Source of the DNA: a virus
Virus record (IMG/VR): IMGVR_UViG_3300027971_000074
Span: 1-47,312 of that record
Direction: 5' to 3' (one strand)
DNA length: 47,312 bases
Made by a program: the position numbers and the translations under genes. Of this stretch, positions 2,378-46,148 are shown in pieces (the stretch's first letter is position 1; each line of letters starts with the position of its first letter). The notes under the pieces were generated by a model that ran no database searches, had not been told where the DNA came from, and saw only the letters and a list, made by a program, of their open reading frames with translations.

Positions 2378-2845
2378 TCAGTTTTCCCGAGGCGTTCCTT
2401 CCAGCGCCGCCACAAAATCCGCCGGGAGCTGGCAGGCCGTGGCCACGCCGACAAAGCCCGCAATCACCTCGGCGGGAACATCAACAGCTCGCGTGATCTT
2501 CTTCCAGGCGTCCGCAAAATCGGACACATCCCCGGATTCGGCACGCAGCAGGGCCGAAGCCAGGGCGCCAGCAGCGACCGGCACCGAGCCGTAGGCGGTG
2601 GCGATGATTCCGTTCAAGGTGTCCGAGTTGAGAGCGATGCGCTTGAAGCGTGCCCAGTCGGCGGTGGTGTCGTTGACAATTTCCAAGCACTCCAGCGGCC
2701 ACCACGCCTGCCCGCCTTCGGCGTAGTTGATGCAAATGCTGTAGTCGTCGCCATTGCGTTGCACTTCGCAGACCGTGGCCAGACCGTTAGTCGGTGGCTC
2801 AATCCGGCGCACCGTGGCGCCGATCTGTGGGGGTTGTTGTGTCAT
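2378..2845 (-). CDS. Fibre-associated hypothetical protein (possible fibre chaperone)
   Basis: A 155-aa protein. The ATG at 2845 overlaps the fibre stop (ATGA), so it is chosen over an upstream in-frame start inside the fibre gene. The N-terminal ~55 residues look beta-rich (VCEVQRNGDDYSICINY, GGQAWWPLECLEIV). The rest is helical (WARFKRIALNSDTLNGII to FVAALEG). It follows the fibre gene directly, the usual place of fibre assembly chaperones, but I do not recognise a named family. Its last codons are REN-stop and lie inside a copy of the late 10-mer. Confidence 0.55.
   Translation of the reverse strand: MTQQPPQIGATVRRIEPPTNGLATVCEVQRNGDDYSICINYAEGGQAWWPLECLEIVNDTTADWARFKRIALNSDTLNGIIATAYGSVPVAAGALASALLRAESGDVSDFADAWKKITRAVDVPAEVIAGFVGVATACQLPADFVAALEGTPREN
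2380..2389 (-). promoter_or_regulatory. Late 10-mer CGGGAAAACT, copy 1
   Basis: 20 nt upstream of the membrane protein ATG (2359). It is part of the preceding gene as codons CGG GAA AAC T (REN-stop). Followed by GAGGCAG. Confidence 0.85.
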
Positions 2846-4998
2846 AGGAAGGCAGAGGATGTCATGACACAGTTTCCAAAACCACTTTGAGACACCGCGC
2901 AAAATAGGTTCAGCGACGACGCCCATGTAACGCTATACCAACCGTTATCCGCTGCGCTTGTTCTAATAGTCCAGTTTATTCCATCTGGGGATGTCATCAC
3001 CCTGTTTCCAGAGCCGGTGAATGCAACTGCACAAAACAGACTCAGTGATGGTGCCCAAGTGACGTTATACCAATCGTTATCCGCTGCGCTTGTTCTAGTA
3101 GTCCAGTTTATTCCATCTGGAGATGTCATCACACGGTTGCCGGTGCCGCTGTATGCCACCGCGCAGAACAGGCTCAGCGATGGCGCCCAAGTGACGCTAA
3201 ACCATGCGTTATTTGCTGCGCTTGTTCTAGTAGTCCAGTTTATTCCATCTGGGGATGTCATCACTCGGTTTCCAGAGCCGGTGATTGCCACCGCACAAAA
3301 CAGACTCAGTGATGGTGCCCAAATGACGCTATACCAAAGGTTATCCGCTGCGCTTGTTCTAATAGTCCAGTTTATTCCATCTGGGGATGTCATCACCCTG
3401 TTTCCGGTGCCGGTGATTCCAACCGCGCAGAACAGACTCAGCGATGGCGCCCATGCAACGGAACGCCAGTCGTTATCCGCTGCGCTTGTTCTAGCAGTCC
3501 AGTTTATTCCATCTGGAGATGTCATCACCCTGTTTCCGGTTCCGCTATTTGCCACCGCGCAAAACAGACTTAGCGATGGCGCCCATGTAACGCTACGCCA
3601 GTTGTTATCCGCTGCGCTTGCTCTGGCCGTCCAGTTAATTCCATCTGGCGATGTCATCACTCTGTTTCCGGTGCCACTACCTGCCACGGCACAAAACAGG
3701 TCCAGCGATGGTGCCCATGTAACGCTGTTCCAAGCGTTATCCGCTGCGCTTGCCCTTGACTTCCAAAACTTGCCAGCATCACCCGAATCGTTATAGAACA
3801 CCTGCGAGCCGTTCTTGTATCCCGCATAAATAGCAGGCAGCAACGATTCAGGCGGACTGGTGTATTCCCGGCGAATCAGGTAGAGCTTGCCGGAAACGGG
3901 AGAACTGAGCGCCGCGTATTCAGCAGCGGTGAGGCAGATCGTGTCCGCGCCCAGCACGCCACCAGAGAACGACAGGCCGCCGCCCACCGTGGCCCCAGCG
4001 GCGCTGCCGCCGTTGTTGTAGACAAGCTGGCCGCTGCTGCCAGCAACAGGCCCAGCGGGGCCGGTGGCTCCGGTGGCGCCGGTTGCGCCCGCTGCCCCGG
4101 TATCGCCACGGGGGATGGTGAAATTGAAGACAGCCGCGCTGCTGGAGCCTCCGTTGCTGACGCTGGCGGAGCTACCTGCCGCGCCCGTAGTGACCGTGCC
4201 AACCGCCACCGTGGCGGCTGTGCCGTTCGTGCCGTTTGTGCCGTTGGCTCCTGCTGCGCCTGCGTCGCCGCGAGGGATGGTGAATGCCAGCACAGCGGCA
4301 GAGCTGCTGCCGGTGTTCGTAACAGCAGCGCTCGATCCAGGAGCGCTCGTGGTGACACTGCCAACGGCCACTGTGGCGGCTGTGCCGTTGCTTCCCGCCG
4401 CTCCGGCTGGCCCCTGTGGACCCGTCGCGCCGGTTGCGCCCGTGTCCCCGCGAGGGATGGTGAAGTTGAAGACTGCCGCTGAACTGGTGCCTGCGTTGCT
4501 GACGCTGGCGCTCGATCCTGCTGCGCCTGTGGTAACCGATCCGATGCCAATGGTTGCTGCCGCCCCTGGCGCTCCTGCTGTTCCAGTGGGGCCGGTGTTT
4601 CCTGTGTCACCCCTTGGGATTGAAAAATTGAGAATTGCGGCGCTGCTTGTCCCCGCATTTGAAACCGAGGCGCTCGATCCAGCGGCACCTGTAACAACGC
4701 TGCCAACACTGACGGTTGCTGCCGCTCCTGCAGCCCCTGCCGGTCCCGCTGCACCCGTCGCTCCAGGGGGTCCGCTCAAAGCGAATTGAACTGACCCCCA
4801 GCCTCCGGTTGCTTTCGGCCCATAAACATCACCATTGGCACGCAGGTAGAAGTCGCCAACCGCACCCACGCCAGAGGTCGGCACCGCCGATCCCACAAGC
4901 CACCGCGAGCCGACAGGTCCAGGAGGGCCAGGAGTGACAACCTCAGCAACAACCGGGCCAGTTGCCGCGTAAACATCAATGACAGCAGGACAACTCAT
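2842..4998 (-). CDS. Tail fibre with collagen-like repeats and a C-terminal beta-propeller
   Basis: A 718-aa protein. Its N-terminal domain is followed by about four long repeats alternating Gly-X-Y stretches (GATGATGPQGPAG) with a beta module ending in '(F/S)IPRGDTG'. A trimer-type linker comes next (LVYNNGGSAAGATVGGG). The C-terminal ~300 residues are tandem 44-residue modules with consensus W..V.WAPSLSLFCAV...GTGNRVMTSPDGINWT.R.SAADN. Seven modules are counted and the last is cut short after VMTS. The strand FWKSRASAADN before module 1 would complete it. The likely role is a virion fibre whose propeller binds the host surface. It is coupled by ATGA overlaps on both sides. Confidence 0.85.
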   Translation of the reverse strand: MSCPAVIDVYAATGPVVAEVVTPGPPGPVGSRWLVGSAVPTSGVGAVGDFYLRANGDVYGPKATGGWGSVQFALSGPPGATGAAGPAGAAGAAATVSVGSVVTGAAGSSASVSNAGTSSAAILNFSIPRGDTGNTGPTGTAGAPGAAATIGIGSVTTGAAGSSASVSNAGTSSAAVFNFTIPRGDTGATGATGPQGPAGAAGSNGTAATVAVGSVTTSAPGSSAAVTNTGSSSAAVLAFTIPRGDAGAAGANGTNGTNGTAATVAVGTVTTGAAGSSASVSNGGSSSAAVFNFTIPRGDTGAAGATGATGATGPAGPVAGSSGQLVYNNGGSAAGATVGGGLSFSGGVLGADTICLTAAEYAALSSPVSGKLYLIRREYTSPPESLLPAIYAGYKNGSQVFYNDSGDAGKFWKSRASAADNAWNSVTWAPSLDLFCAVAGSGTGNRVMTSPDGINWTARASAADNNWRSVTWAPSLSLFCAVANSGTGNRVMTSPDGINWTARTSAADNDWRSVAWAPSLSLFCAVGITGTGNRVMTSPDGINWTIRTSAADNLWYSVIWAPSLSLFCAVAITGSGNRVMTSPDGINWTTRTSAANNAWFSVTWAPSLSLFCAVAYSGTGNRVMTSPDGINWTTRTSAADNDWYNVTWAPSLSLFCAVAFTGSGNRVMTSPDGINWTIRTSAADNGWYSVTWASSLNLFCAVSQSGFGNCVMTSSAFL
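2845..3800 (-). repeat. Tandem 132-bp repeats encoding propeller blades
   Basis: The block recurs with a 132-bp period. The shared core 'ccagtttattccatctgg' (+ strand) starts at 2971, 3103, 3235, 3367 and 3499, with a variant at 3631. The copies are nearly identical in DNA, so blade gain or loss by recombination is plausible. Confidence 0.9.
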
Positions 4999-5357
4999 GC
5001 CGTCCTCCTTGCTGGCCGGAACGTTGGCACTGCAGGACCATAGGCAATGTGATGATCGTCAGCTAGATCAGAGCCTGGTGCTACTGCCAAAATGTCGTAG
5101 AACCAATCCTTCCCAACTTTCAAACTGTTTACCGTTGCTTCGGGAAGAATTGCAATAATGCTTCCCGTGCTTCCACTAGAACTACTCAAGTTCAGTGGGT
5201 AGATTTCACTGCGCTTGGCATCAGATACAAACCCATACAGCGTCCAGCCAGTAAACGTCCACGGTGTTGTCTTCCCCGTATCAGCCCACAGCTTTAACTC
5301 AAGCCTGGCATCAATGCCCTGCTCCAGCTCCCAGGTTTTGCCCTCTACCCAGGCCAT
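4995..5357 (-). CDS. Baseplate/fibre-anchor-like protein
   Basis: A 120-aa beta-rich protein, with 'GIDARLELKLWAD', 'TGWTLYGFVSD', 'LEVGKDWFYDILAV'-like strands (observed LKVGKDWFYDILAV) and a final 'YGPAVPTFRP'. This pattern matches small phage proteins of the BppU N-terminal type that precede fibre genes and link receptor-binding proteins to the baseplate. It starts 19 nt downstream of a late 10-mer, has a recognisable GGAG upstream, and overlaps the fibre start (ATGA). Confidence 0.6.
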   Translation of the reverse strand: MAWVEGKTWELEQGIDARLELKLWADTGKTTPWTFTGWTLYGFVSDAKRSEIYPLNLSSSSGSTGSIIAILPEATVNSLKVGKDWFYDILAVAPGSDLADDHHIAYGPAVPTFRPARRTA

Positions 5358-5374
5358 GGCTCATCTCCTCTGCC

Positions 5375-5641
5375 TCAGTTTTCCCGGTCAGCCTCGTAGG
5401 CCTCGTTCACCGCAGGGGTGGCCGGGTCGTCCGCTTGAAACGTGCCGCTCGCGGTGCGGGCCCTGCGCCGCGGCTTGATCGGTGCCGCCTCTGCGGGGTC
5501 GTCAGCCGGAGCCGCCTCATCCTCGGGTTCGGCGGCCAGGGGTTTGGCGACCTCCTCGGGTTGCCGCTCGCCGCTGATCAGGGACTGCTGCTGCTCGGGC
5601 GTTGTGCCCGGCGAGAAGCTGTAAAGCGCAAGGTGGGCCAT
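5375..5641 (-). CDS. Small acidic phage structural-region protein
   Basis: An 88-aa protein with an Ala/Pro/Asp/Glu-rich middle, a basic patch (KPRRRART) and the C-terminal segment SGTFQADDPATPAVNEAYE. I recall this 'G.F..DDP.TP..NEA' signature from proteins encoded near phage capsid genes, but I know no function. It ends REN-stop inside a late 10-mer, which leads directly to the next gene. A hairpin terminator separates it from the capsid genes upstream. Confidence 0.55.
   Translation of the reverse strand: MAHLALYSFSPGTTPEQQQSLISGERQPEEVAKPLAAEPEDEAAPADDPAEAAPIKPRRRARTASGTFQADDPATPAVNEAYEADREN
5377..5386 (-). promoter_or_regulatory. Late 10-mer CGGGAAAACT, copy 2
   Basis: 19 nt upstream of the ATG at 5357. 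Again encodes REN-stop of the preceding gene and is followed by GAGGCAG, like copy 1. Confidence 0.85.
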
Positions 5642-7191: not shown

Positions 7192-7373
7192 GGGTCGAAA
7201 ATGCGGAGGGGTTGAAGGATGAAGCAGATCCAGGTAGGGGGCCTTGGCTTGGCATCGCGCCTTGCCTCAGTGGTCGTCCGTGCTGGTGGTGGTCAGTGCC
7301 CTGGCATCGCGCCGGTGGCGGGTGACCCGCAGGCATCGCGCCATTGGATCACCCGCAGTTTTCCCGGTTCGTC
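7192..7373 (-). promoter_or_regulatory. Long untranslated leader of the capsid gene with three 11-bp repeats
   Basis: This is the longest gap in the late leftward block. It carries GGCATCGCGCC (+ strand) at 7251-7261, 7303-7313 and 7332-7342, a 13-bp dyad GCGGGT-G-ACCCGC at 7318-7330, and a late 10-mer at 7357-7366. A 25-codon ORF (ATG at 7344 to TGA at 7267) begins 12 nt after the 10-mer and could be a leader peptide. No other gene is seen. Confidence 0.55.
7357..7366 (-). promoter_or_regulatory. Late 10-mer CGGGAAAACT, copy 3
   Basis: 7 bp after the scaffold stop and 165 nt before the capsid GTG, the only long spacing. A 25-codon leader ORF starts 12 nt downstream. Confidence 0.85.
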
Positions 7374-8183
7374 TCAGTTGCCGTAGTGCTCGGACAAGAA
7401 CGCGCTGCCGGAGGTGGCACGGGCCGCCTCCACGGAACGAGAGTGAACGCCCCGCACACCGCGAGCACCAACCAGGCCGCCGGATCCCTCGCCGCCCTTG
7501 GCGCGGAAGAAGGTGCCCACCACGGCGCTACTGTCAGCCTGCTGGTTCAGCCAGGCCACAGGATCGGTGTCCTGCCCCTCGGCCGTCTTGATTCGGTCGC
7601 CGTCGCCGTCCACCACATAGAGCTTCCCGGTGGCCTCATCCACCCGGAGGTGGCGGCGGCCTTGAAACTCCATCCACGCATCAAAGAAGGTCAGGCCGCT
7701 GGTATCGGCCCCGTCGCGGCCATCGGCGGCGCTGAACACGCTGCGGGCCAAGGTGCGCACCTGGAGGTCAATGCGGCGGGCCTTCTCCGCCTCGGCGGTG
7801 GCTGTGGCCTTCCTTACGGCCTCCTGGGCTTTGCCCTCAATCCGCTGCCGCTCGGCCGCGGTGAGTTGCTCGCGCTCCACCAGGCGCCGCTCCAGCTCAA
7901 TCGCCTTCTCCTGTGCCTGCCGGTAGGCGTCGGGATTGAGATCCTTGACCGTGCTGAGCTGCGCCTCCATCTGCGCCAAGCGCTTCTCCAGGGCCTTGCG
8001 GGTTTCCCGCTCCTGCCGCAGGGCCCGCTGGCCCGCCTCGCCCAGGCTGGGATCCTCGGGATCAATCTCTTCGGCAGGGGCTCCGCCCCCTTCGCCGCTA
8101 TCGCCAGCTTCGGTCACCATGGCCCATGGCTGCAGCCATTCATCGGCGGTTCCAAGGAGCCGATCAATCTGTTTCGTGTTCAT
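7374..8183 (-). CDS. Capsid scaffolding protein
   Basis: A 269-aa acidic, highly charged protein. Residues 45-145 form a long coiled coil (SLGEAGQRALRQERETRKALEKRL through ERQRIEGKAQEAVRKA). The N-terminus is low-complexity (GDSGEGGGAPAEEIDPEDP) and the C-terminal domain ends in SGSAFLSEHYGN. This is the usual architecture of phage head scaffolds, and it lies immediately upstream of the capsid gene. No protease motif is seen. Confidence 0.8.
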   Translation of the reverse strand: MNTKQIDRLLGTADEWLQPWAMVTEAGDSGEGGGAPAEEIDPEDPSLGEAGQRALRQERETRKALEKRLAQMEAQLSTVKDLNPDAYRQAQEKAIELERRLVEREQLTAAERQRIEGKAQEAVRKATATAEAEKARRIDLQVRTLARSVFSAADGRDGADTSGLTFFDAWMEFQGRRHLRVDEATGKLYVVDGDGDRIKTAEGQDTDPVAWLNQQADSSAVVGTFFRAKGGEGSGGLVGARGVRGVHSRSVEAARATSGSAFLSEHYGN

Positions 8184-8225
8184 GCGTTGCCGGGGAATCG
8201 CTCCGCCGGTGCAAGGTGCAACCGC

Positions 8226-8235
8226 AGTTTTCCCG
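8226..8235 (-). promoter_or_regulatory. Late 10-mer CGGGAAAACT, copy 4
   Basis: Between the 43-aa gene (stop at 8246) and the scaffold start at 8183; spacing 42 nt. Confidence 0.85.
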
Positions 8236-8245
8236 GTTTGCTATT

Positions 8246-8377
8246 TCAGCCCTTCAGGGCCTGCGCCACGGCCTTGGCGATGGCACGTTCCTCGGCCTGC
8301 CGCTGCAGCAGCCGCTGACGGTTGGCCAGGGCCACGAGCTGAGCGGCCTGGACGAGGGGAGGGGAGGGGGTGGTCAT
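8246..8377 (-). CDS. 43-aa hypothetical protein
   Basis: Its ATG overlaps the stop of the preceding tail gene (ATGA) and it ends 10 bp before a late 10-mer. The product starts MTTPSPPLVQAAQLVALANR and continues as one Arg/Gln/Ala-rich helix to the C-terminal ALKG. Coupling and a clean spacer on the 3' side favour a real gene. Function unknown. Confidence 0.6.
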   Translation of the reverse strand: MTTPSPPLVQAAQLVALANRQRLLQRQAEERAIAKAVAQALKG

Positions 8378-9714: not shown

Positions 9715-9724
9715 AGTTTTCCCG
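9715..9724 (-). promoter_or_regulatory. Late 10-mer CGGGAAAACT, copy 5
   Basis: 4 bp after the tail hub stop and 25 nt before the ATG at 9689. Followed by AGGGCAG. Confidence 0.85.
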
Positions 9725-17422: not shown

Positions 17423-17432
17423 AGTTTTCCCG
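17423..17432 (-). promoter_or_regulatory. Late 10-mer CGGGAAAACT, copy 6
   Basis: 3 bp after the tail terminator stop and 25 nt before the tape measure GTG. Followed by GCGGCAG. Confidence 0.85.
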
Positions 17433-20102: not shown

Positions 20103-20112
20103 AGTTTTCCCG
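20103..20112 (-). promoter_or_regulatory. Late 10-mer CGGGAAAACT, copy 7
   Basis: 28 nt before paralog A, in the divergent gap beside the rightward lysis cassette. No leftward gene precedes it for 2.6 kb, so here it stands alone upstream of a gene that needs a promoter. Confidence 0.85.
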
Positions 20113-23775: not shown

Positions 23776-24450
23776 CTACGCGGAGTTTTCCCGGCTCGCC
23801 ATGATCAGCACCGCGCCGGCCTGCGCAGCGGCAAACGCTCGCCCCTGCACCGCATCAATCGGCACCCGCAGCGCCACCACCTCGCCGGCCTCTGACGCGA
23901 ACTCCCGCACCCTGCCCACGGCGCTGGCCTGGGCCACCAGGAACCCACCCCAGTGGCTCGCATCCACCCGGTAGGGGGCCAGCAGGATCGCATCCTCGGC
24001 CGCCCAGCACAGCCGCGGCGGTGGGGTGACGCCTCGGCCCTGGGCTTCCAGATCAGCCAGCCATGGGCCATCCAACACGAACCCCGGCAGCAGGTTCCGC
24101 TCCAGCAGCTCCAGCAGGGCGGCGCCGGCTTCGCTGGGGGGCCTGGGGGATTCCGCCACGTCAGACCAGAAGGTGAACTCCCGCAGGCTGTAGGGCTCGG
24201 GCCGGGCCTCGCGGTTGCGGTTGGCCTCGGCGAGGATCAGGGCGATCTGCGCGGTGCTCTGCTCCTCCCGGTGAAGCCGCTCCCTTTCGGCCGCATAGCC
24301 CGCCGCGAGGGCCTGGAGGACGTAGCCGCCGGGGAGCCTACCGAAGCGCTCGCGGCTGAACTCGGCGGCGCCGGGCCAGAGCCTGCGGCATTCCCAGTAG
24401 GCGCGGGACCAGTCGGGTCGGTCGCAATCGAGTCGCTGACCTCCTGCAAC
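23776..24450 (-). CDS. Minus-1 frameshift extension of the tail assembly chaperone (T-like)
   Basis: This frame has no start of its own in its first 97 codons, yet encodes protein-like sequence from just after the slippery site: RPDWSRAYWECRRLWP, FSRERFGRLPGGYVLQALA, AQIALILAEANRNRE, SLREFTFWSD, then ~127 further residues to REN-SA. A -1 shift at GGGAAAG (24450-24456) joins residues 1-188 of the upstream ORF to these 224 residues, about 412 aa in all. This is the lambda gpG/gpGT arrangement. An independent start at 24159 would make only the last 127 aa. A late 10-mer overlaps its end. Confidence 0.75.
   Translation of the reverse strand, partial: VAGGQRLDCDRPDWSRAYWECRRLWPGAAEFSRERFGRLPGGYVLQALAAGYAAERERLHREEQSTAQIALILAEANRNREARPEPYSLREFTFWSDVAESPRPPSEAGAALLELLERNLLPGFVLDGPWLADLEAQGRGVTPPPRLCWAAEDAILLAPYRVDASHWGGFLVAQASAVGRVREFASEAGEVVALRVPIDAVQGRAFAAAQAGAVLIMASRENSA
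23784..23793 (-). promoter_or_regulatory. Late 10-mer CGGGAAAACT, copy 8
   Basis: 25 nt before the tail tube ATG, overlapping the end of the frameshifted chaperone (S-R-E-N-S-A-stop). Confidence 0.85.
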
Positions 24451-27239: not shown

Positions 27240-27249
27240 AGTTTTCCCG
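27240..27249 (-). promoter_or_regulatory. Late 10-mer CGGGAAAACT, copy 9
   Basis: Directly abuts the paralog C stop codon; 20 nt before the paralog B ATG. Followed by GCGGCAG. Confidence 0.85.
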
Positions 27250-28785: not shown

Positions 28786-28795
28786 AGTTTTCCCG
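28786..28795 (-). promoter_or_regulatory. Late 10-mer CGGGAAAACT, copy 10
   Basis: 21 nt before the paralog C ATG, 11 bp after the upstream stop. Followed by GCGGCAA. Confidence 0.85.
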
Positions 28796-29336: not shown

Positions 29337-29585
29337 TCAGGCTGCCGTGAGTTTTCCCGCAGCCGGATCTTCCAGGCCCACGCGGGGCCCGTGGAGGCTG
29401 CCAAACCAGAACCGGCCCTGCGGGTCGAGGCTGTTGCTCAGCAGCCGCAGGATCTGCTCTCCCTCGTGGTCATCGGTGACGGTGGCAAGCATCCGCAGCC
29501 CCTGCTGAGCGGCGGCAGCATCGCGGCGGAGGGCGGCGACGGACAAGGCCTGCAGTAGGCGGAGGGTGGGGCTGCGGGTGGGCAT
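29337..29585 (-). CDS. 82-aa hypothetical protein
   Basis: The ATG at 29585 is chosen because it lies between the paralog D stop and the helical segment; longer starts would read a Pro/His-rich stretch across a homopolymer. The product has a helical N-terminus (TLRLLQALSVAALRRDAAAAQ) and 'EGEQILRLLSNSLDP'. Its last codons (AGKLTAA-stop) contain the late 10-mer. Function unknown. Confidence 0.5.
   Translation of the reverse strand: MPTRSPTLRLLQALSVAALRRDAAAAQQGLRMLATVTDDHEGEQILRLLSNSLDPQGRFWFGSLHGPRVGLEDPAAGKLTAA
29350..29359 (-). promoter_or_regulatory. Late 10-mer CGGGAAAACT, copy 11
   Basis: 27 nt before the ATG at 29322. Inside the preceding gene but in another frame (gCG GGA AAA CTc, A-G-K-L). 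Confidence 0.85.
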
Positions 29586-31647: not shown

Positions 31648-31657
31648 AGTTTTCCCG
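31648..31657 (-). promoter_or_regulatory. Late 10-mer CGGGAAAACT, copy 12
   Basis: 21 nt before the paralog D GTG, 11 bp after the phosphoesterase stop. Confidence 0.85.
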
Positions 31658-32854: not shown

Positions 32855-32864
32855 AGTTTTCCCG
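32855..32864 (-). promoter_or_regulatory. Late 10-mer CGGGAAAACT, copy 13
   Basis: 31 nt before the phosphoesterase ATG, 26 bp after the MuF stop. Followed by AGGGCAA. Confidence 0.85.
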
Positions 32865-36142: not shown

Positions 36143-36152
36143 AGTTTTCCCG
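36143..36152 (-). promoter_or_regulatory. Late 10-mer CGGGAAAACT, copy 14
   Basis: Directly abuts the portal stop codon; 21 nt before the paralog E ATG. Followed by GCGGCAG. Confidence 0.85.
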
Positions 36153-37673
36153 TCAGTTCAGCGGCAACCCCTGCGCGTCCACGCCACCCCCTGCGAGGTC
36201 ATTGGGGCCCGGCACCGGCGGGTTGTTGAGGGCTTGCTGGCGGGCATCCTCGGCGGCCAGTTCGGTGGCTTCCTTCTTGCCGTCCACACCAGGCCGGAGC
36301 ATCCCGCGCTTCTGAGCCAGGTGCGTGACCGTCTCGCGAAGCAACAACCCTTTGTCGTAGAGGGTGCCGGCAAGGGTGAGCAGGGCGTCATCCACGGGCT
36401 TGTCCGTGATCCCCGGCAGCAGATCCAAGCCGGCGCCGGCCTGGGGCGGCTCCCCGGTAAACGCCCCCCAGAGCTGAAACATGGATTCCCATGCGGAGCT
36501 CTTTGCTTCGGCCATGGTGGTGATCGTGGCCTGAAGCTGGGCCCCCTCCAGTTCGGCCTGTGTGGCGGTGCGGTTGCTGCTGCCGCTGAACAGGAAGCTG
36601 AGGGTGGAGCGATCAATCAGCTTCTCGATCTCCTGCAGATGCTGCAGATGCTTGTCCAGGCTGCCGCCGGAGGGTTCGGCAAACGAGAGCGAGCCGTTGG
36701 GATCCTTGATCTCCACCAGGCTGTTGGGCCCCAGCGTCAGCGGTTGCCCCGGCGCCCGTCCGGCGTCCTTCAAGACGGTCACCGGCAAGGCGCAGCGGTG
36801 CAGGAGTTCCTTCAAGTCGGAATACTCCCTGAACCAGTCCAGGGTGAGGTTTGCCAGGCTCAGCAGGGGGATCCCGCCCTCTCCAAAACCATCGCGGGTG
36901 GCGCCGTACCAGACCACCGGCGGATACTGCAGCGGCTGGCCGTTGGTACCGGTGAAGAAGCCCTCCTGCGAGCGGCCCTGCTCATCGGTGGCTACCTCCA
37001 CCTGATAGTTGGCCGAGGCGCCCTTGCCGCCGTCGCCCTTGATCTTCAGAAGGTGCCACTCACCGCCCCGCATCACGCGATAACGCGGCTCCAGCTTCAG
37101 GCCGTAGTCGCCGTCTTCAACCTCGTGCCATTCGAGAACCGTGACGGCGATCGGCACCCGCTTCCGGCCGACGCGGGCCACCCTCCAGTTGAGGACGTTG
37201 CGGCGCTCGGCCACGCTGAACACCGGCCGGCGGCCCTGGGCCAACTCTGCGGCCCTGCTCTCGGGCACCCCCGGCGGCATGTCGGCCATCAGGAGGCAGC
37301 CGCCATCGCGGAGCACCAAGGCATCGGCGCCGAGGCCCCAGGCCTTGAGGCTGTTGCCCTCGCCGTCAATGTCCTGGGCTGCGTCCAAAAGCCCCTTCTG
37401 CACCCCTCGAAGCTGGTAGCGGCTCAGCACCCCCGCGAAGGCGCTCACGCCATCACGGAAAAACGACGGGTAGCTGCTGCGCTTCAGGCGAGCCTGGTAG
37501 GCCTCCTTGGGCTCGCCGGCCTCCTTCGGAAGGTGCCGCAGCTTCGCATCACCCCGCAGCAGCTCCCAGCAGTCCGCCACTAGGTCCAAGTCCGCCATGG
37601 ACTCCGCCAGCCTGGGGTGACGGAATGACGGCAGATCGCCCTTATCGGTTGGATGGGTGATCGCCTGCCGCAC
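36153..37673 (-). CDS. Portal protein (DUF4055 type)
   Basis: A 506-aa protein with a GTG start at 37673 that overlaps the end of the sigma-like gene by 32 bp; an ATG at 37598 is the alternative. The early block 'DCWELLRGDAKLRHLPKEAGEPKEAYQARLKRSSYPSFFRDGVSAFAGVLSR' is characteristic of DUF4055 portals. 'LSLANLTLDWFREYSDLKELLHRCALPV' and 'ATQAELEGAQLQATITTMAEAK' match the stem and later helices. Portals form the dodecameric DNA gate of the head. A late 10-mer lies 25 nt upstream. Confidence 0.87.
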   Translation of the reverse strand: MRQAITHPTDKGDLPSFRHPRLAESMADLDLVADCWELLRGDAKLRHLPKEAGEPKEAYQARLKRSSYPSFFRDGVSAFAGVLSRYQLRGVQKGLLDAAQDIDGEGNSLKAWGLGADALVLRDGGCLLMADMPPGVPESRAAELAQGRRPVFSVAERRNVLNWRVARVGRKRVPIAVTVLEWHEVEDGDYGLKLEPRYRVMRGGEWHLLKIKGDGGKGASANYQVEVATDEQGRSQEGFFTGTNGQPLQYPPVVWYGATRDGFGEGGIPLLSLANLTLDWFREYSDLKELLHRCALPVTVLKDAGRAPGQPLTLGPNSLVEIKDPNGSLSFAEPSGGSLDKHLQHLQEIEKLIDRSTLSFLFSGSSNRTATQAELEGAQLQATITTMAEAKSSAWESMFQLWGAFTGEPPQAGAGLDLLPGITDKPVDDALLTLAGTLYDKGLLLRETVTHLAQKRGMLRPGVDGKKEATELAAEDARQQALNNPPVPGPNDLAGGGVDAQGLPLN

Positions 37674-38616
37674 CGGTGCCGCCTATTCCTGCTGGCTGAG
37701 TTTTCCCGCTCTGGCCCTCGTCGTGACAGGGGCCAAACAGCACCAACTGCTCCGCCGCCTGCAGGATCTCAGCGGCCCCTGTCAGCCGCCTGCGGGGGGA
37801 GGCGCCTGCCGCCTCGGTATCGTCCGCGGGAAGCTCCAGGGCCAGTGCCTGCTGTTCAGGGGTAGGGTTCAACCGCTCGCCCCGGATGATGCCTTGCGCC
37901 ATGCGCAGGAACTGCCCGTGCGGCATTCGGGCCAGTTGCCGCCGCTTCGGGGTGTCCCACGCCGCCTCCAGTATCTGCCGATCAGCCCAGCCCAGCGCGG
38001 CATGGGCTTCATCGGCGATCCGCATGGCCTCGTTCAGCTCATCAAAGCTCTCGATCTCATCCCACGGGTCAGGCTCGCGGGTGGCGTGGAAGGCGTCAGG
38101 ATCCAGGCAGCGGGTCGCCCCCTGCGCCTCCAGGATCGCCTCAACCTCCTCACGCCCGAGCCCGGTGGCCTCCACTACGGCCAAAAGAGTGGCCCCCTCC
38201 CCGGCCAAGCGCCGCACCGTGGGCGCCTTGTCGCGCCAGCGATCGGGAAACTTCACCCCGCTGCTGTGACCTCGATCCCGCAGCCACTGGGCCATGGCGC
38301 CCCGGATGAAGGGAACCACGCACGTGCTCAGCTTGAACGGTTCACCGGTGGCTGGGTTCTTCCGCTCGGGGTCATACCGGCGGCAGCCCTTCAGCAGGCC
38401 CGCGGCGGCCACCAAAAACAGGTCATCAAATGGCATCCGGGTGGACCGAGCCATCCGGTTCGCCATGGACTGGGCCAGCAGGAGATTGTCTGCGGCCAGT
38501 TGCTCCGACCACGGCGTAGGTGCCGGGAATCGCCCCAGCTTGCCCAGGTCAGGACACGGTTCAGGCCGGATCTTGGTGCTGCGGGCGGCCCTGGGGCGCC
38601 GGGTCGTAGCAGGCAT
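37642..38616 (-). CDS. Phage-encoded sigma-70-like factor
   Basis: A 324-aa protein; the ATG at 38616 is preferred, with a TTG two codons upstream. Residues ~38-116 match sigma region 2: LAADNLLLAQSMANRMARST, DDLFLVAAAGLLKGCRRYDP and IRGAMAQWLRDRG, with a short insertion (ERKNPATGEP) before the 2.4-like helix. Residues ~128-172 resemble region 3 (TVRRLAGEGATLLAVVEATG, then LDPD). Residues ~195-250 look like a degenerate region 4. It starts 7 bp after TerL. A sigma factor in this late block suggests control of late promoters. Its 3' end contains a copy of the late 10-mer. The promoter it recognises is not known. Confidence 0.75.
   Translation of the reverse strand: MPATTRRPRAARSTKIRPEPCPDLGKLGRFPAPTPWSEQLAADNLLLAQSMANRMARSTRMPFDDLFLVAAAGLLKGCRRYDPERKNPATGEPFKLSTCVVPFIRGAMAQWLRDRGHSSGVKFPDRWRDKAPTVRRLAGEGATLLAVVEATGLGREEVEAILEAQGATRCLDPDAFHATREPDPWDEIESFDELNEAMRIADEAHAALGWADRQILEAAWDTPKRRQLARMPHGQFLRMAQGIIRGERLNPTPEQQALALELPADDTEAAGASPRRRLTGAAEILQAAEQLVLFGPCHDEGQSGKTQPAGIGGTGAAGDHPSNR
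37699..37708 (-). promoter_or_regulatory. Late 10-mer CGGGAAAACT, copy 15
   Basis: 25 nt before the portal GTG. Inside the sigma-like gene in a third frame (agC GGG AAA ACT, S-G-K-T). The copy furthest upstream. Confidence 0.85.
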
Positions 38617-38623
38617 GTTCAAT

Positions 38624-40288
38624 TCACCGGCGAATCAGGCCTGATTTCAGTGCCATTATCGCGTCATCTGACCATCCCTGCTGTCGCAAAGCGTCAGCAT
38701 CCACCGGCTGGGGTGTGGCGCCATGGCCCCAGGAAACGGTGCTGAAGCTCAGCGGGCCGGAACCGATCAGGTAGATCAGGAGCTGGCTGGTCTGATCAAC
38801 AATGTCATCAAAGGTGGCGGCAGGGAACTGGATCAACTGATCCACCACCTTGGAGCCCCAAGGGGCGGAGCGCGGCAGGAACACGCGGCCGGCGTTCACC
38901 TCCACGCTGGCGGCATTGGCGCGGCTCTCCTTGGACCCCATCGCCCCGGCGCCGGCCTCCACCACGCGGTAGCCATGGGCGGCAGCGGTGAGCGTCTTGA
39001 TCACGGCGGCACCGTTGGCCTTCTTCTCGCACAGGAGCTCCCCGAACCCATGCCGGCGGTGCATGGCCTTGATCATCGCCACGGTGGCCGGGAAGTCCAG
39101 GCGCTCATCCACCAGATCCAGCAGCCAGGCCCCTTCCACGGTCTGCCCCCACAGGCCCATGGCCACCATGTCGCTCCCTTCCGTGTTGTCGAAGGAGCAG
39201 TCCACCGAAAGGATTGTGCGCAGGAAGGCCCGCGGCAGCAGGGCATCCCCCTCGTCTCCAGGCCAGGCAGGGCAGCCGTAGAACCGCAGGCGATCCCGAA
39301 AGAAGATGGTGCCCTTGCCGGTGCTGGGGCGCTGCTGGTAGACGCTCTCCCAGTCGCGATCTGGGGTGTTGGCCCGCTTGCGTTGGATCCACCGCTCGTT
39401 GAAGCGCTCCGGGTCCAGGGCTTCGCCGGGCTGGCGCGGATCAGGCTCGCGGCTGACGGTGGCCGGGAGCGGCTTGGCCTCATGGGCGGGAACCGCCTCG
39501 ATCGGCAGGCTGACCACGTGCCACCGCTCGCAGTCGGCCTCCATGCCCTCCTTCTCCAGCTCCAGGTTCTTACCCAGCAGGTAGCCGATCAAGTCGGCCT
39601 CATGCCAGCGGGTGTGAACCACCACCACAGACGCGCCGGGTTCTTCGCGGGTGCTGAGCACCGAATCCCACCAGTTATGAACCTGCCGCCGGAACGCAGC
39701 GCTCTCGGCCTGCTCGCGGCCCTTGATCGGGTCATCGATGAACAGGCGATGGCCGGGCTTGCCGGTGCCCTTGCCGATGCCGGCGGTCCAGTTGGTGCCG
39801 ATCCCGTCCACGGTGCCCCATTCCTCCTTGCCCGAGAGGCTCGGCCGCAGGATCCCCCCGGAGGCCAGGAAGTAGCCCTTCGCGTCATCGGAGAAGCCAA
39901 CGGCGAGGTCTTGCGACTGGCAGCAAATGCCGTTGGAGCGATCGGGATAGCGCCGGAGGCAGTAGCCCGGCAGGAACCGGCTGAAGATCGTGGATTTCCA
40001 GTGGCGTGGGGGGAGCTCCACCATCAGCCGCGGCAGTTCGTCATCGGCCACGCGCTGGGCCAGATCGATCAGCCGCAGGGTGTGACGGGTGAAGGGGAAC
40101 CGCGGGAAAGACGTGGCGATGTAGGTCCGAAAGTCGGCGGTGTAGGGCTCCACAGCCGCTGGGATCGCCTCCTCTGCCGCCCTGGCCTCCTGCACCTCCC
40201 GCATCACGGGAAAGCCGCCCCAGTCGTGGGTGGCGGCGTGGTGCATGAGGTTGAGGGGTGGCATCAGCCCATGCCAATGTGGAGCCAC
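38624..40288 (-). CDS. terL: Terminase large subunit
   Basis: A 554-aa protein from a GTG at 40288; ATGs at 40264 and 40246 are alternatives. The ATPase Walker A is ELPPRHWKST (about 91-100), with Trp where Gly is usual (PPRHGKS). Walker B is LFIDDP. 'WWDSVLSTREEPGASVVVVHTRWHEADLIG' is the C-motif region. The nuclease domain starts at 'TILSVDCSFDNTEGSD'. The protein packages DNA through the portal and cuts concatemers. It is separated from the probable small subunit by several unrelated genes. Confidence 0.93.
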   Translation of the reverse strand: MAPHWHGLMPPLNLMHHAATHDWGGFPVMREVQEARAAEEAIPAAVEPYTADFRTYIATSFPRFPFTRHTLRLIDLAQRVADDELPRLMVELPPRHWKSTIFSRFLPGYCLRRYPDRSNGICCQSQDLAVGFSDDAKGYFLASGGILRPSLSGKEEWGTVDGIGTNWTAGIGKGTGKPGHRLFIDDPIKGREQAESAAFRRQVHNWWDSVLSTREEPGASVVVVHTRWHEADLIGYLLGKNLELEKEGMEADCERWHVVSLPIEAVPAHEAKPLPATVSREPDPRQPGEALDPERFNERWIQRKRANTPDRDWESVYQQRPSTGKGTIFFRDRLRFYGCPAWPGDEGDALLPRAFLRTILSVDCSFDNTEGSDMVAMGLWGQTVEGAWLLDLVDERLDFPATVAMIKAMHRRHGFGELLCEKKANGAAVIKTLTAAAHGYRVVEAGAGAMGSKESRANAASVEVNAGRVFLPRSAPWGSKVVDQLIQFPAATFDDIVDQTSQLLIYLIGSGPLSFSTVSWGHGATPQPVDADALRQQGWSDDAIMALKSGLIRR

Positions 40289-43897: not shown

Positions 43898-44074
43898 CTA
43901 TTTGGTGCTGATCTGGATAGGGGTAGCCTCACGCAATAACCGCGCCACCTCCCGCCCGTCAATCGTCCGCCCATACCGGGCCTGCACCAACAGGGAGAGG
44001 GTGAACGGGTGCCGGCCGGGGTGCTCGCGGGCGATGGCCGCCACCATCTCGGCGGCGGTGGGCTGATCGCTCAT
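43898..44074 (-). CDS. 58-aa hypothetical protein
   Basis: Starts MSDQPTAAEMVAAIAREHPG in an ATGA overlap with the TerS-like gene. 'HPFTLSLLVQARYGRTIDGREVARLLREA' looks like a compact helical or winged-helix fragment. Function unknown. Confidence 0.55.
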   Translation of the reverse strand: MSDQPTAAEMVAAIAREHPGRHPFTLSLLVQARYGRTIDGREVARLLREATPIQISTK

Positions 44075-44757
44075 GGCTGGCCCTTCCGCACCGCAAAGGC
44101 CTCCTCCAGGAGCTTGTGAACGCCTGCGCTGTCTCCCCAATGCGTTCTGCCGCCATTGGCAAGCCCGTGCATCGTCTCGCAGAGGCGGTAATAGGCCGGG
44201 ATCAGATCCCACAGCATCCGCGCCATCACGTTGGCCCGCTCGATCTCCTGCTGCTCCAACAGGTCGCGCCAGAGCTGCCGGGCCAGCTCCAGGTCACCGC
44301 GGAACGCTCGCACCAGGGGGAACAACGCCTGCGCTTCCTCGGCCATGCCGCTGCCGATCGCGTCATAGGCCTTGCGGTAGCGGCTCAGCACCTGAAGGTG
44401 GGATTCGGCCAAGGCGGCGGTGCCCTCCGGCTGCTGGCCCAGTACCTCCGGATTGATGACCTTGACGGTGCTGGTCGGGGGGATTGACTGCGGGGCGCGT
44501 GGGGTCGGCGGAGTCTCAGGCGCCTGCCGTTTGGGAGGCTTCCTGCCCCTGGCGCGGTCGTAGGCCTCGGCTCGCTTTCGCCAGTTGAACCGCTTGGCCA
44601 TTTGCCCGAGGTTCTGAGGCGTAACCCCCAGGACTTTGGCCAAAGCGGCAAGGGTTCGGTCTGGGCCCAGTTCCATGAACTGCACAAATCGGTCGTAAGC
44701 CTCTGGGCTTTCGGTGGGCCCCTTAAAGCCCTCGCCTTGATCCCAGAGCGATGCCAA
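44071..44757 (-). CDS. Probable terminase small subunit
   Basis: A 228-aa protein. The N-terminal domain 'AYDRFVQFMELGPDRTLAALAKVLGVTPQNLGQMAKRFNWRKRAEAYD' is a helix-turn-helix of the kind found in small terminases. A Pro-rich linker and a helical region (ESHLQVLSRYRKAYDAIGSG, ELARQLWRDLLEQQEIERAN) follow, suited to oligomerisation. It would recognise the packaging site. It is first in the leftward operon and several genes away from TerL, so a general HTH regulator is the alternative. Confidence 0.65.
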   Translation of the reverse strand: MASLWDQGEGFKGPTESPEAYDRFVQFMELGPDRTLAALAKVLGVTPQNLGQMAKRFNWRKRAEAYDRARGRKPPKRQAPETPPTPRAPQSIPPTSTVKVINPEVLGQQPEGTAALAESHLQVLSRYRKAYDAIGSGMAEEAQALFPLVRAFRGDLELARQLWRDLLEQQEIERANVMARMLWDLIPAYYRLCETMHGLANGGRTHWGDSAGVHKLLEEAFAVRKGQP

Positions 44758-45017: not shown

Positions 45018-46148
45018 ATGACTGCCGACTACATCGGGCAGAAGCCGACATTTACGGCCCTGCCCAACTGGCTTAGGGGCCAGGCCACGCCCATGGAGGG
45101 CTGGGTGCTGTGGTGCCTGCAAAGCCATTTCCCGAACATCCATCCCAGCCTGAACCTCCTGGCCAAGGAGGCGTGCATGTCACGCCGAGCGGTCTGCACC
45201 GTGCTGGCGGGGATTGAGCGCAAGGGATGGCTTGTCCGCGAGCAGTCGTTTTCGGAGACGGGCCGCCAGACCGCAACCCGTTACCGGCTGACGATCTGGG
45301 ATCCCCATTGGGCCGTTGAGGAGGGTGCATCAGGTGCACTAGTGCAGGAGGTGCACTCTCGGAGGGGTGCAGGAGATGCACCCTCGGGAGTGCATGACGT
45401 GCACGGGGGGAGTGCAGGAGGTGCACTCAAAGAAGATCAATCTAAGAAGATCAATTCTAAGAAAACCTATGAACCCCCCTTACCCCCCACTGCGCGGGGG
45501 GAGCGCCGGCCCGAGGCCGTCGCCGCGCGCCCGTGTCGAGATCGGGATGGATTCTTGATCCCGGATCCCGAGCCGCAGCCGCAGGTCACCTCGGAACCAC
45601 CCGCAGAGCCTCCGGCGGCAGTGCAGCCGCAGCCGCAACAGCCGCACGCCCCCAAGCCACTGCCCGAGCCGGCGCCAGATCCTGAGGCGATCGTCCCGGT
45701 CAAGCCGAAGGCTCGGAAGCGAGAGGCTGGGTTTGTGCCGGCCCACGAGGATGTTCCGGCGGCGCTGCTGCCGGCGGTTCGCGAACTGCTGGCGTTCTGG
45801 CCGGCGCGGAAGGGCGCCAAGACCCTCGCGGCCTGGGAGCTGCTCTGCAGCGAGCTTCAGCGGATCCAAGACCACCCGCAGGGCGGGACTGAGATCGTGC
45901 GCGGGCAACTGAAGGCGGGCACCACGGCCGGCATTGACGGCAAGGCCTGGCAATCAATCCGTTTCGCCAACTGGCTCAGCTACGGCACCAAGGCCGGCAC
46001 GTCGATCATCGGCAGCGGGTTTGCGGGCAAGCGCTCGACGATGGACCGGGTGATGGGGGCCATCGCCCTGGTCGAGGACCGCGAGCGCAAGGCGGCAGCA
46101 GCCCAGCAGGTGGAGATCGGCGGGCTGATGCTCGCGGAGGTGGCCTGA
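45018..46148 (+). CDS. Replication initiation protein (lambda O-like role)
   Basis: A 376-aa protein from the ATG at 45018. Residues ~15-95 are a winged helix (MEGWVLWCLQSHFPNIHPSL, then LAKEACMSRRAVCTVLAGIE and a wing RQTATRYRL), like HTH_36/phage O-type initiators. The middle is low-complexity, charged and Pro-rich, and overlies the iteron array. The C-terminal domain (FVPAHEDVPAALLPAVRELL to SIRFANWLSYGTKAG) may contact the helicase loader. The iteron array inside its own gene is the strongest support. Overlaps the next gene by TGATG. Confidence 0.75.
   Translation: MTADYIGQKPTFTALPNWLRGQATPMEGWVLWCLQSHFPNIHPSLNLLAKEACMSRRAVCTVLAGIERKGWLVREQSFSETGRQTATRYRLTIWDPHWAVEEGASGALVQEVHSRRGAGDAPSGVHDVHGGSAGGALKEDQSKKINSKKTYEPPLPPTARGERRPEAVAARPCRDRDGFLIPDPEPQPQVTSEPPAEPPAAVQPQPQQPHAPKPLPEPAPDPEAIVPVKPKARKREAGFVPAHEDVPAALLPAVRELLAFWPARKGAKTLAAWELLCSELQRIQDHPQGGTEIVRGQLKAGTTAGIDGKAWQSIRFANWLSYGTKAGTSIIGSGFAGKRSTMDRVMGAIALVEDRERKAAAAQQVEIGGLMLAEVA
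45325..45475 (+). other. Putative replication origin: five iterons plus AT-rich region
   Basis: Five 15-bp dyads of the form GTGCA-N5-TGCAC lie at 45325-45339, 45342-45356, 45367-45381, 45390-45404 and 45412-45426, spaced 17, 25, 23 and 22 bp. An A-rich stretch (about 45427-45475) with repeats of AAGAAGATCAAT follows directly. Iterons then an AT-rich unwinding region inside the initiator gene is the layout of the lambda origin. Confidence 0.78.

Follow-up and report, generated by a model that had tools for sequence, protein, structure and literature searches.

Which promoters are read by the sigma-like protein encoded in the late block of this cyanobacterial virus, and how would it be brought to them? 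The window, the whole stretch of 47,312 nucleotides analysed here, carries on its minus strand a gene of 324 codons, P0002 (37642..38616; codons 38616..37645, plus the stop to 37642). Its neighbours are the terminase large subunit TerL on the upstream side (38624..40288, minus) and the portal on the other (36153..37673, minus). The earlier note had taken P0002 for a sigma-70-like factor with a clear region 2 and a degenerate region 4. It had proposed that this factor reads a conserved 10-mer, found 20-40 nt before late starts, as a single -10-like box, the two forming a self-contained late transcription system.

The profile searches then suggested do return sigma factors. P0002 matches PHROG 36098, "RNA polymerase sigma factor" (E 2e-18), and PHROG 351 (E 1.9e-16), and the PHROG matches of the sigma are limited to families 36098, 351 and 21612. 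It also matches PRK07408, the cyanobacterial SigF model (2.4e-10), and the SigBFG model TIGR02980 (2e-9), but below all the NCBIfam cut-offs, making it a divergent relative and not a full SigB/F/G member. These two models match 24 of 24 relatives. The Pfam Sigma70_r2 score of P0002 taken singly is 17.3 bits, under the cut-off of 24, so that the sigma assignment rests on the family. Across the 24 relatives, Pfam detects region 2 in 15, a weak region 3 in five, and region 4 in none, and the profile alignments end short of region 4. The profile-profile alignment with host SigF-like sigmas (99.4%, E 4.6e-21) covers columns 25-166, which is regions 2-3 only. Matches to PDB profiles include the sigma factor in 8x6g, SigF (1l0o) and FliA, while a match to the repeat-protein profile 8vd6 was set aside as five weak copies on one short helix-turn-helix-like stretch. 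The three region 2 peptides quoted in the earlier note are all found in the ORF, and its description of the two regions is borne out. By its profile matches, the gene product is thus classed as a sigma descended from SigF-type (group 3, SigB/F/G) sigmas. Region 4 may have been lost or have changed beyond recognition, and a diverged region 4 fold is possible.

Within the protein, region 2 spans residues ~38-115 and is followed by region 2.4/3.0, GHSSGVKFPDRWRDKA (residues 116-131), and by a region 3-like part up to residue ~167. A conserved block without a helix-turn-helix match (residues 190-245) precedes a hypervariable linker (residues ~245-288), after which comes QLVLF, a predicted beta-clamp (DnaN) binding pentapeptide (residues 290-294; codons 37735..37749, minus). 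The remaining tail (residues 295-324) overlaps the promoter motif of the portal gene. As the tail of the main-clade ORFs past QLVLF crosses this next promoter, the conserved SGKTQPAG found there (AGC GGG AAA ACT CAG CCA GCA GGA) is a side effect of the DNA motif. Relatives of the sigma are encoded in 62 viral contigs. The gene lies downstream of TerL in 25 of 28 additional TerL loci, the remainder being cut off or distant. In one contig (L163:63-1070, in G013) an adenine methyltransferase gene lies between the sigma tail and the portal, and ends near a clamp-motif-like QPDLF. The isolated phages S-CBS2, S-CRES1 and PSS2 have the same terS-terL-sigma order as the window, and their sigmas are 32-40% identical over regions 2-3. 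The SigF gene annotated in S-CBS2 (L078, ~12579) is shorter than that of S-CRES1; its remainder, ending in LQGSLF, is in another frame, so that a frameshift or an error of sequencing must be present in the record.

On the DNA side, GGGAAAACT is the most enriched non-tandem 9-mer of the window. It has 15 copies on the minus strand, which encodes the late genes, and one on the plus strand; 1499 permuted 9-mers with the same letters give a mean of 0.14 and a maximum of 9 copies on the minus strand. All 15 minus-strand copies are preceded by C, yielding the 10-mer CGGGAAAACT, for which chance would give about 0.1 copies, and a start codon follows 18-42 nt after the end of each, much as described in the earlier note. 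The portal is the first motif-bearing late gene, and its copy (37699..37707, gene start 37673) is within the 3' end of the sigma ORF. The others, likewise on the minus strand, are at 36143..36151 (gene start 36121), 32855..32863 (32823), 31648..31656 (31626), 29350..29358 (29322), 28786..28794 (28767), 27240..27248 (27219), 23784..23792 before a tail protein (23758), 20103..20111 (20074), 17423..17431 before the tape measure (17397), 9715..9723 (9689), 8226..8234 before the scaffold (8183), 7357..7365 upstream of the major head protein (7336), 5377..5385 (5357) and 2380..2388 (2359). Exact copies are absent upstream of the portal site, so the small terminase subunit TerS (44071..44757, minus), TerL and the sigma gene are without the motif. 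A separate feature of this strand is an array of 6.5 copies of a 132-bp (44-aa) repeat at 2893-3752, in a gene (2842-4884) for a probable tail fibre, a protein that contains collagen-like GxY stretches as well.

In relatives there are 242 motif sites, 71 of them non-redundant, with the consensus C GGGAAAACT g c G G C A g. Upstream conservation is limited to the C in front, and the 71 sites have no -35 element. The whole records of close relatives tested (at least 29 kb) have 7-17 copies each, nearly all on one strand (16:0, 15:0 and 17:0), with the late half enriched where the early half is present. A called start lies 10-50 nt beyond 79 of 106 sites, against 3.2% of random positions, and outside the window the distance to the start is 9-51 nt. 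A search for exact GGGAAAACT in S-CBS2, S-CRES1 and PSS2 gave next to nothing. Their diverged box surfaced only through EM motif discovery upstream of late genes, as TaGGcAtcCTAg, TaGGaAncCTAg and aGGAAncCTaa, respectively. The pattern GGNANNCT[AG] is found before their late genes in 20 of 46, 18 of 36 and 13 of 26 cases, with about 1, 0.7 and 0.3 expected. Late genes of all three phages are thus preceded by the same core, GG(a/c)A-NN-CT(A/G).

The core that remains invariant across all variants is GG-A--CT. In sigma-70 promoters, two bases are flipped out of the -10 element by sigma, and an extended -10 dinucleotide can be present. If the final T of the box is set at -7, the box would be an extended -10, with GG at -14/-13 as the dinucleotide, and A at -11 and T at -7 as the two flipped bases. 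A purine is found 7 nt after this T, at what would be +1, with a frequency of 0.91 (main clade), 1.0 (PSS2) and 0.86 (S-CRES1), and less strongly in S-CBS2 (0.62), and leaders in the window would be ~12-36 nt long. The single -10-like box originally proposed is in this way refined to an extended -10 with a purine ~7 nt past the T. The box was also considered as a -35, a reading prompted by the TAGGC at -32 of Synechocystis SigF promoters, and this was rejected: there is no conserved -10 at a fixed distance, and the spacing to the start varies.

The other end of the sigma bears on how it would reach these promoters. Past residue 245 the sigmas are hypervariable, and conservation resumes at Q290-L-x-L-F294. 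Bacterial clamp-binding proteins have the consensus QL(S/D)LF (PMC9690074), and the host Pol III alpha has QGNLF. A QxxLF-type motif occurs within the last 90 residues of 20 of the 24 relatives (shuffles: mean 0.6, maximum 4). Near the C-end it is found in 13 of the 1018 predicted proteins of 16 records, ten of the 13 being the sigma, and apart from the sigma there is no recurrent protein in these phages that ends in a clamp motif. The pentapeptide is the exact C-terminus of the sigma in a low-GC clade (QLDLF; L037, L038, L040, L041) and in the marine phages S-CRES1/3 and S-CBS2 (QGSLF); QLGLF, QADLF, QCDLF and QFDMF are further forms among relatives. Short linear motifs may arise by chance in one protein, which is implausible with such conservation. 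The sigma is therefore probably tethered to the sliding clamp by its C-terminal pentapeptide. The tether is not universal, since the sigmas of PSS2 and L141/L142 lack the pentapeptide though the motif is present, and those of L034/L036 have a weak form, EQAALL/EQLALL. The motif-bearing phages without it would suit a simpler arrangement, where the protein acts on the motif like any alternative sigma, independently of a clamp, and QxxLF has another function or is a relic. We consider this unlikely, however, as the pentapeptide is kept behind a hypervariable linker and is all but restricted to the sigma, its substitutions (QLDLF, QADLF, QCDLF, QFDMF, QGSLF) obey the clamp consensus, and the clade with its cleanest form carries DnaN as well.

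The DnaN of this low-GC clade (G030-G032) is full-length (TIGR00663, E 9.6e-81, above the cut-off), as at G032:66218-67345 in L151. In these siphovirus-like genomes, the DnaN genes belong to a small island within the late block and run opposite to the late genes. The same genomes have dense 6-nt-periodic CCATAGCCAT/CCATCGCCAT repeats in called genes (G030 4779-5440 and 74531-75383, G031 7972-8170, G032 57944-58166). The window encodes an O-like replication initiation protein (45018..46148, plus), which suggests that the virus relies on the replisome of its host, clamp included. None of the records tested has a family A DNA polymerase, and together these observations are consistent with host replisome use.

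The comparison across phages shows that gene and motif go together. All motif-rich contigs either have the sigma or end before the TerL-portal junction, so that no phage with the motif and without the gene was found, the case that the earlier note had raised against its own proposal. The 17-mer occurs in 32 stretches, and in contigs without the sigma these are fragments or single chance matches. Apparent counter-examples were rejected: TerL and portal are missing as well from G002 and G019, G013 begins next to what is left of the sigma ORF (its final 29 residues), behind the methylase, and G001, G006 and G011 are either chance cases or unrelated. G043 is a MAG holding the sigma locus L089, and its contigs C30 and C53 carry most core copies. 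Sigma and motif also vary together, with counts that overstate the number of independent events because the sequences are related. GGGAAAACT goes with an insert, GH(S/T)SGV, in sigma region 2.4/3.0, and CGGAAAACT is found where this insert is absent (G033, L142). Other subclades have GGAACCCTGA (L219/L138), GGGAAACCTG (L225) and GGAAACCTGAGG (L228). In the cyanosiphoviruses S-LBS1 and S-CBS1, which have an RpoD-like sigma and lack the present one, GGNANNCT[AG] precedes 0 of 28 and 0 of 25 late genes. The pairing of sigma and motif is thus strongly supported by comparative evidence. Binding itself is still something we infer, and it is very likely that the phage sigma recognises the late promoter motif.

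Could another sigma, either the host SigF or a second, RpoD-like sigma of the phage, read the motif instead? The GGTAA at -12 of Synechocystis SigF (PMC2758279) does resemble GGGAA, and RpoD-like sigmas are present in S-CBS2, S-CRES1, PSS2, G020 and G008. This is nevertheless very improbable: G022, G024, G025 and G033 have the motif and no RpoD-like sigma, S-CBS1 and S-LBS1 show the reverse, the TAGGC at -32 needed by host SigF promoters is absent here, and the phage sigma subclade matches the motif variant. The second sigma of G020 (36991-37782) and G008 (7616-8305), as in S-CBS2 and PSS2, is possibly a middle-gene sigma. An element acting in the RNA, such as a translation enhancer, a leader or a processing site, would also be strand-specific and near start codons, but this can scarcely be the answer when the distance to the start varies and only the 7-nt spacing to the downstream purine stays fixed, when one copy is within the 3' end of the sigma ORF, and when the motif co-varies with the sigma and is missing from phages without it.

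A model of late transcription by the phage sigma can now be proposed. Region 2 of the sigma would bind the host core RNA polymerase and direct the holoenzyme to the extended -10 promoter GG(a/c)A-NN-CT(A/G), here CGGGAAAACTG, ahead of each late sub-operon. As region 4 has been lost or can no longer be recognised, no -35 contact would be made. Past the flexible linker, the C-terminal pentapeptide (QLVLF here) would attach the holoenzyme to the sliding clamp on DNA. The host DnaN would serve as this clamp in the majority of these phages, and one clade would use the DnaN that it encodes. Late transcription would in this way be triggered or strengthened where phage DNA is replicating; its late timing, like the coupling to replication, we infer. 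We give this model as a whole, with its single -10-type box and its clamp-tethered, replication-coupled SigF-type sigma, a probability of roughly 0.72. As to the self-contained system of the earlier note, the dedicated promoter and sigma are supported. Self-containment probably does not hold, because the system needs the host core polymerase and, judging by the C-terminal clamp motif, probably also a sliding clamp that replication has loaded.

The sigma resembles the cyanobacterial group 3 SigF, and SigB/SigF/SigG more generally, in that regions 2-3 align, and the promoter core resembles the GGTAA at -12 of Synechocystis. It differs in having no detectable region 4 and an extra C-terminal linker with a clamp motif, and the window system has no TAGGC-like -32 element. 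A "type III sigma" of cyanosiphoviruses was reportedly noticed in P-SS2 in 2009. This sigma (ORF003) and the SigF of the Synechococcus siphoviruses S-CBS2 and S-CRES1 share the terS-terL-sigma order and the core of the late motif with the window, although the marine variant is TaGG(c/a)A-NN-CTA and P-SS2 is without the clamp motif. In the paper on this Prochlorococcus siphovirus, the target of the sigma was left open and only sigma-70 promoters were predicted (PMC2784084). The present analysis proposes a target for it, and provides a ready promoter candidate for many environmental phages of picocyanobacteria. In open full texts we found no earlier report of the motif, nor of the clamp motif in these sigmas. 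What is new here is the predicted beta-clamp-binding pentapeptide behind a hypervariable linker, with a full DnaN in one clade of relatives.

The closest known parallel is the late transcription of phage T4, with its gp55 sigma, gp33 coactivator and gp45 sliding clamp (PMC2988020, PMC7892883). The window sigma shares with gp55 its region 2 homology and a long variable linker (PMC2988020, PMC7892883), as well as a C-terminal clamp-binding epitope, which in the window is predicted from sequence only. In both systems, a single -10-like box without a -35 precedes late virion genes. However, the window sigma is of the SigB/F/G type with a region 3 and has no profile match to gp55, the box GG-A--CT differs from that of T4, and no gp33 counterpart is seen in these phages, a role that the block at residues 190-245 might fill. 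The genomes, moreover, are those of siphoviruses, and most of them carry no clamp gene and would use the host DnaN. The window system is thus predicted to work like T4 gp55/gp45 while not belonging to the gp55 family. To our knowledge, a promoter-reading sigma hooked to the replication clamp has so far been described only for T4 and its relatives. The evidence leans towards replication-coupled, clamp-tethered late transcription having evolved separately outside the T4 family, in siphoviruses of cyanobacteria and from a SigF-type sigma, mostly with the host DnaN as transcription activator and in one clade with its own. If so, T4 would cease to be a special case: with this second origin, which has a different sigma and box and probably employs the host clamp, tying the timing of late genes to replication would become a general solution.
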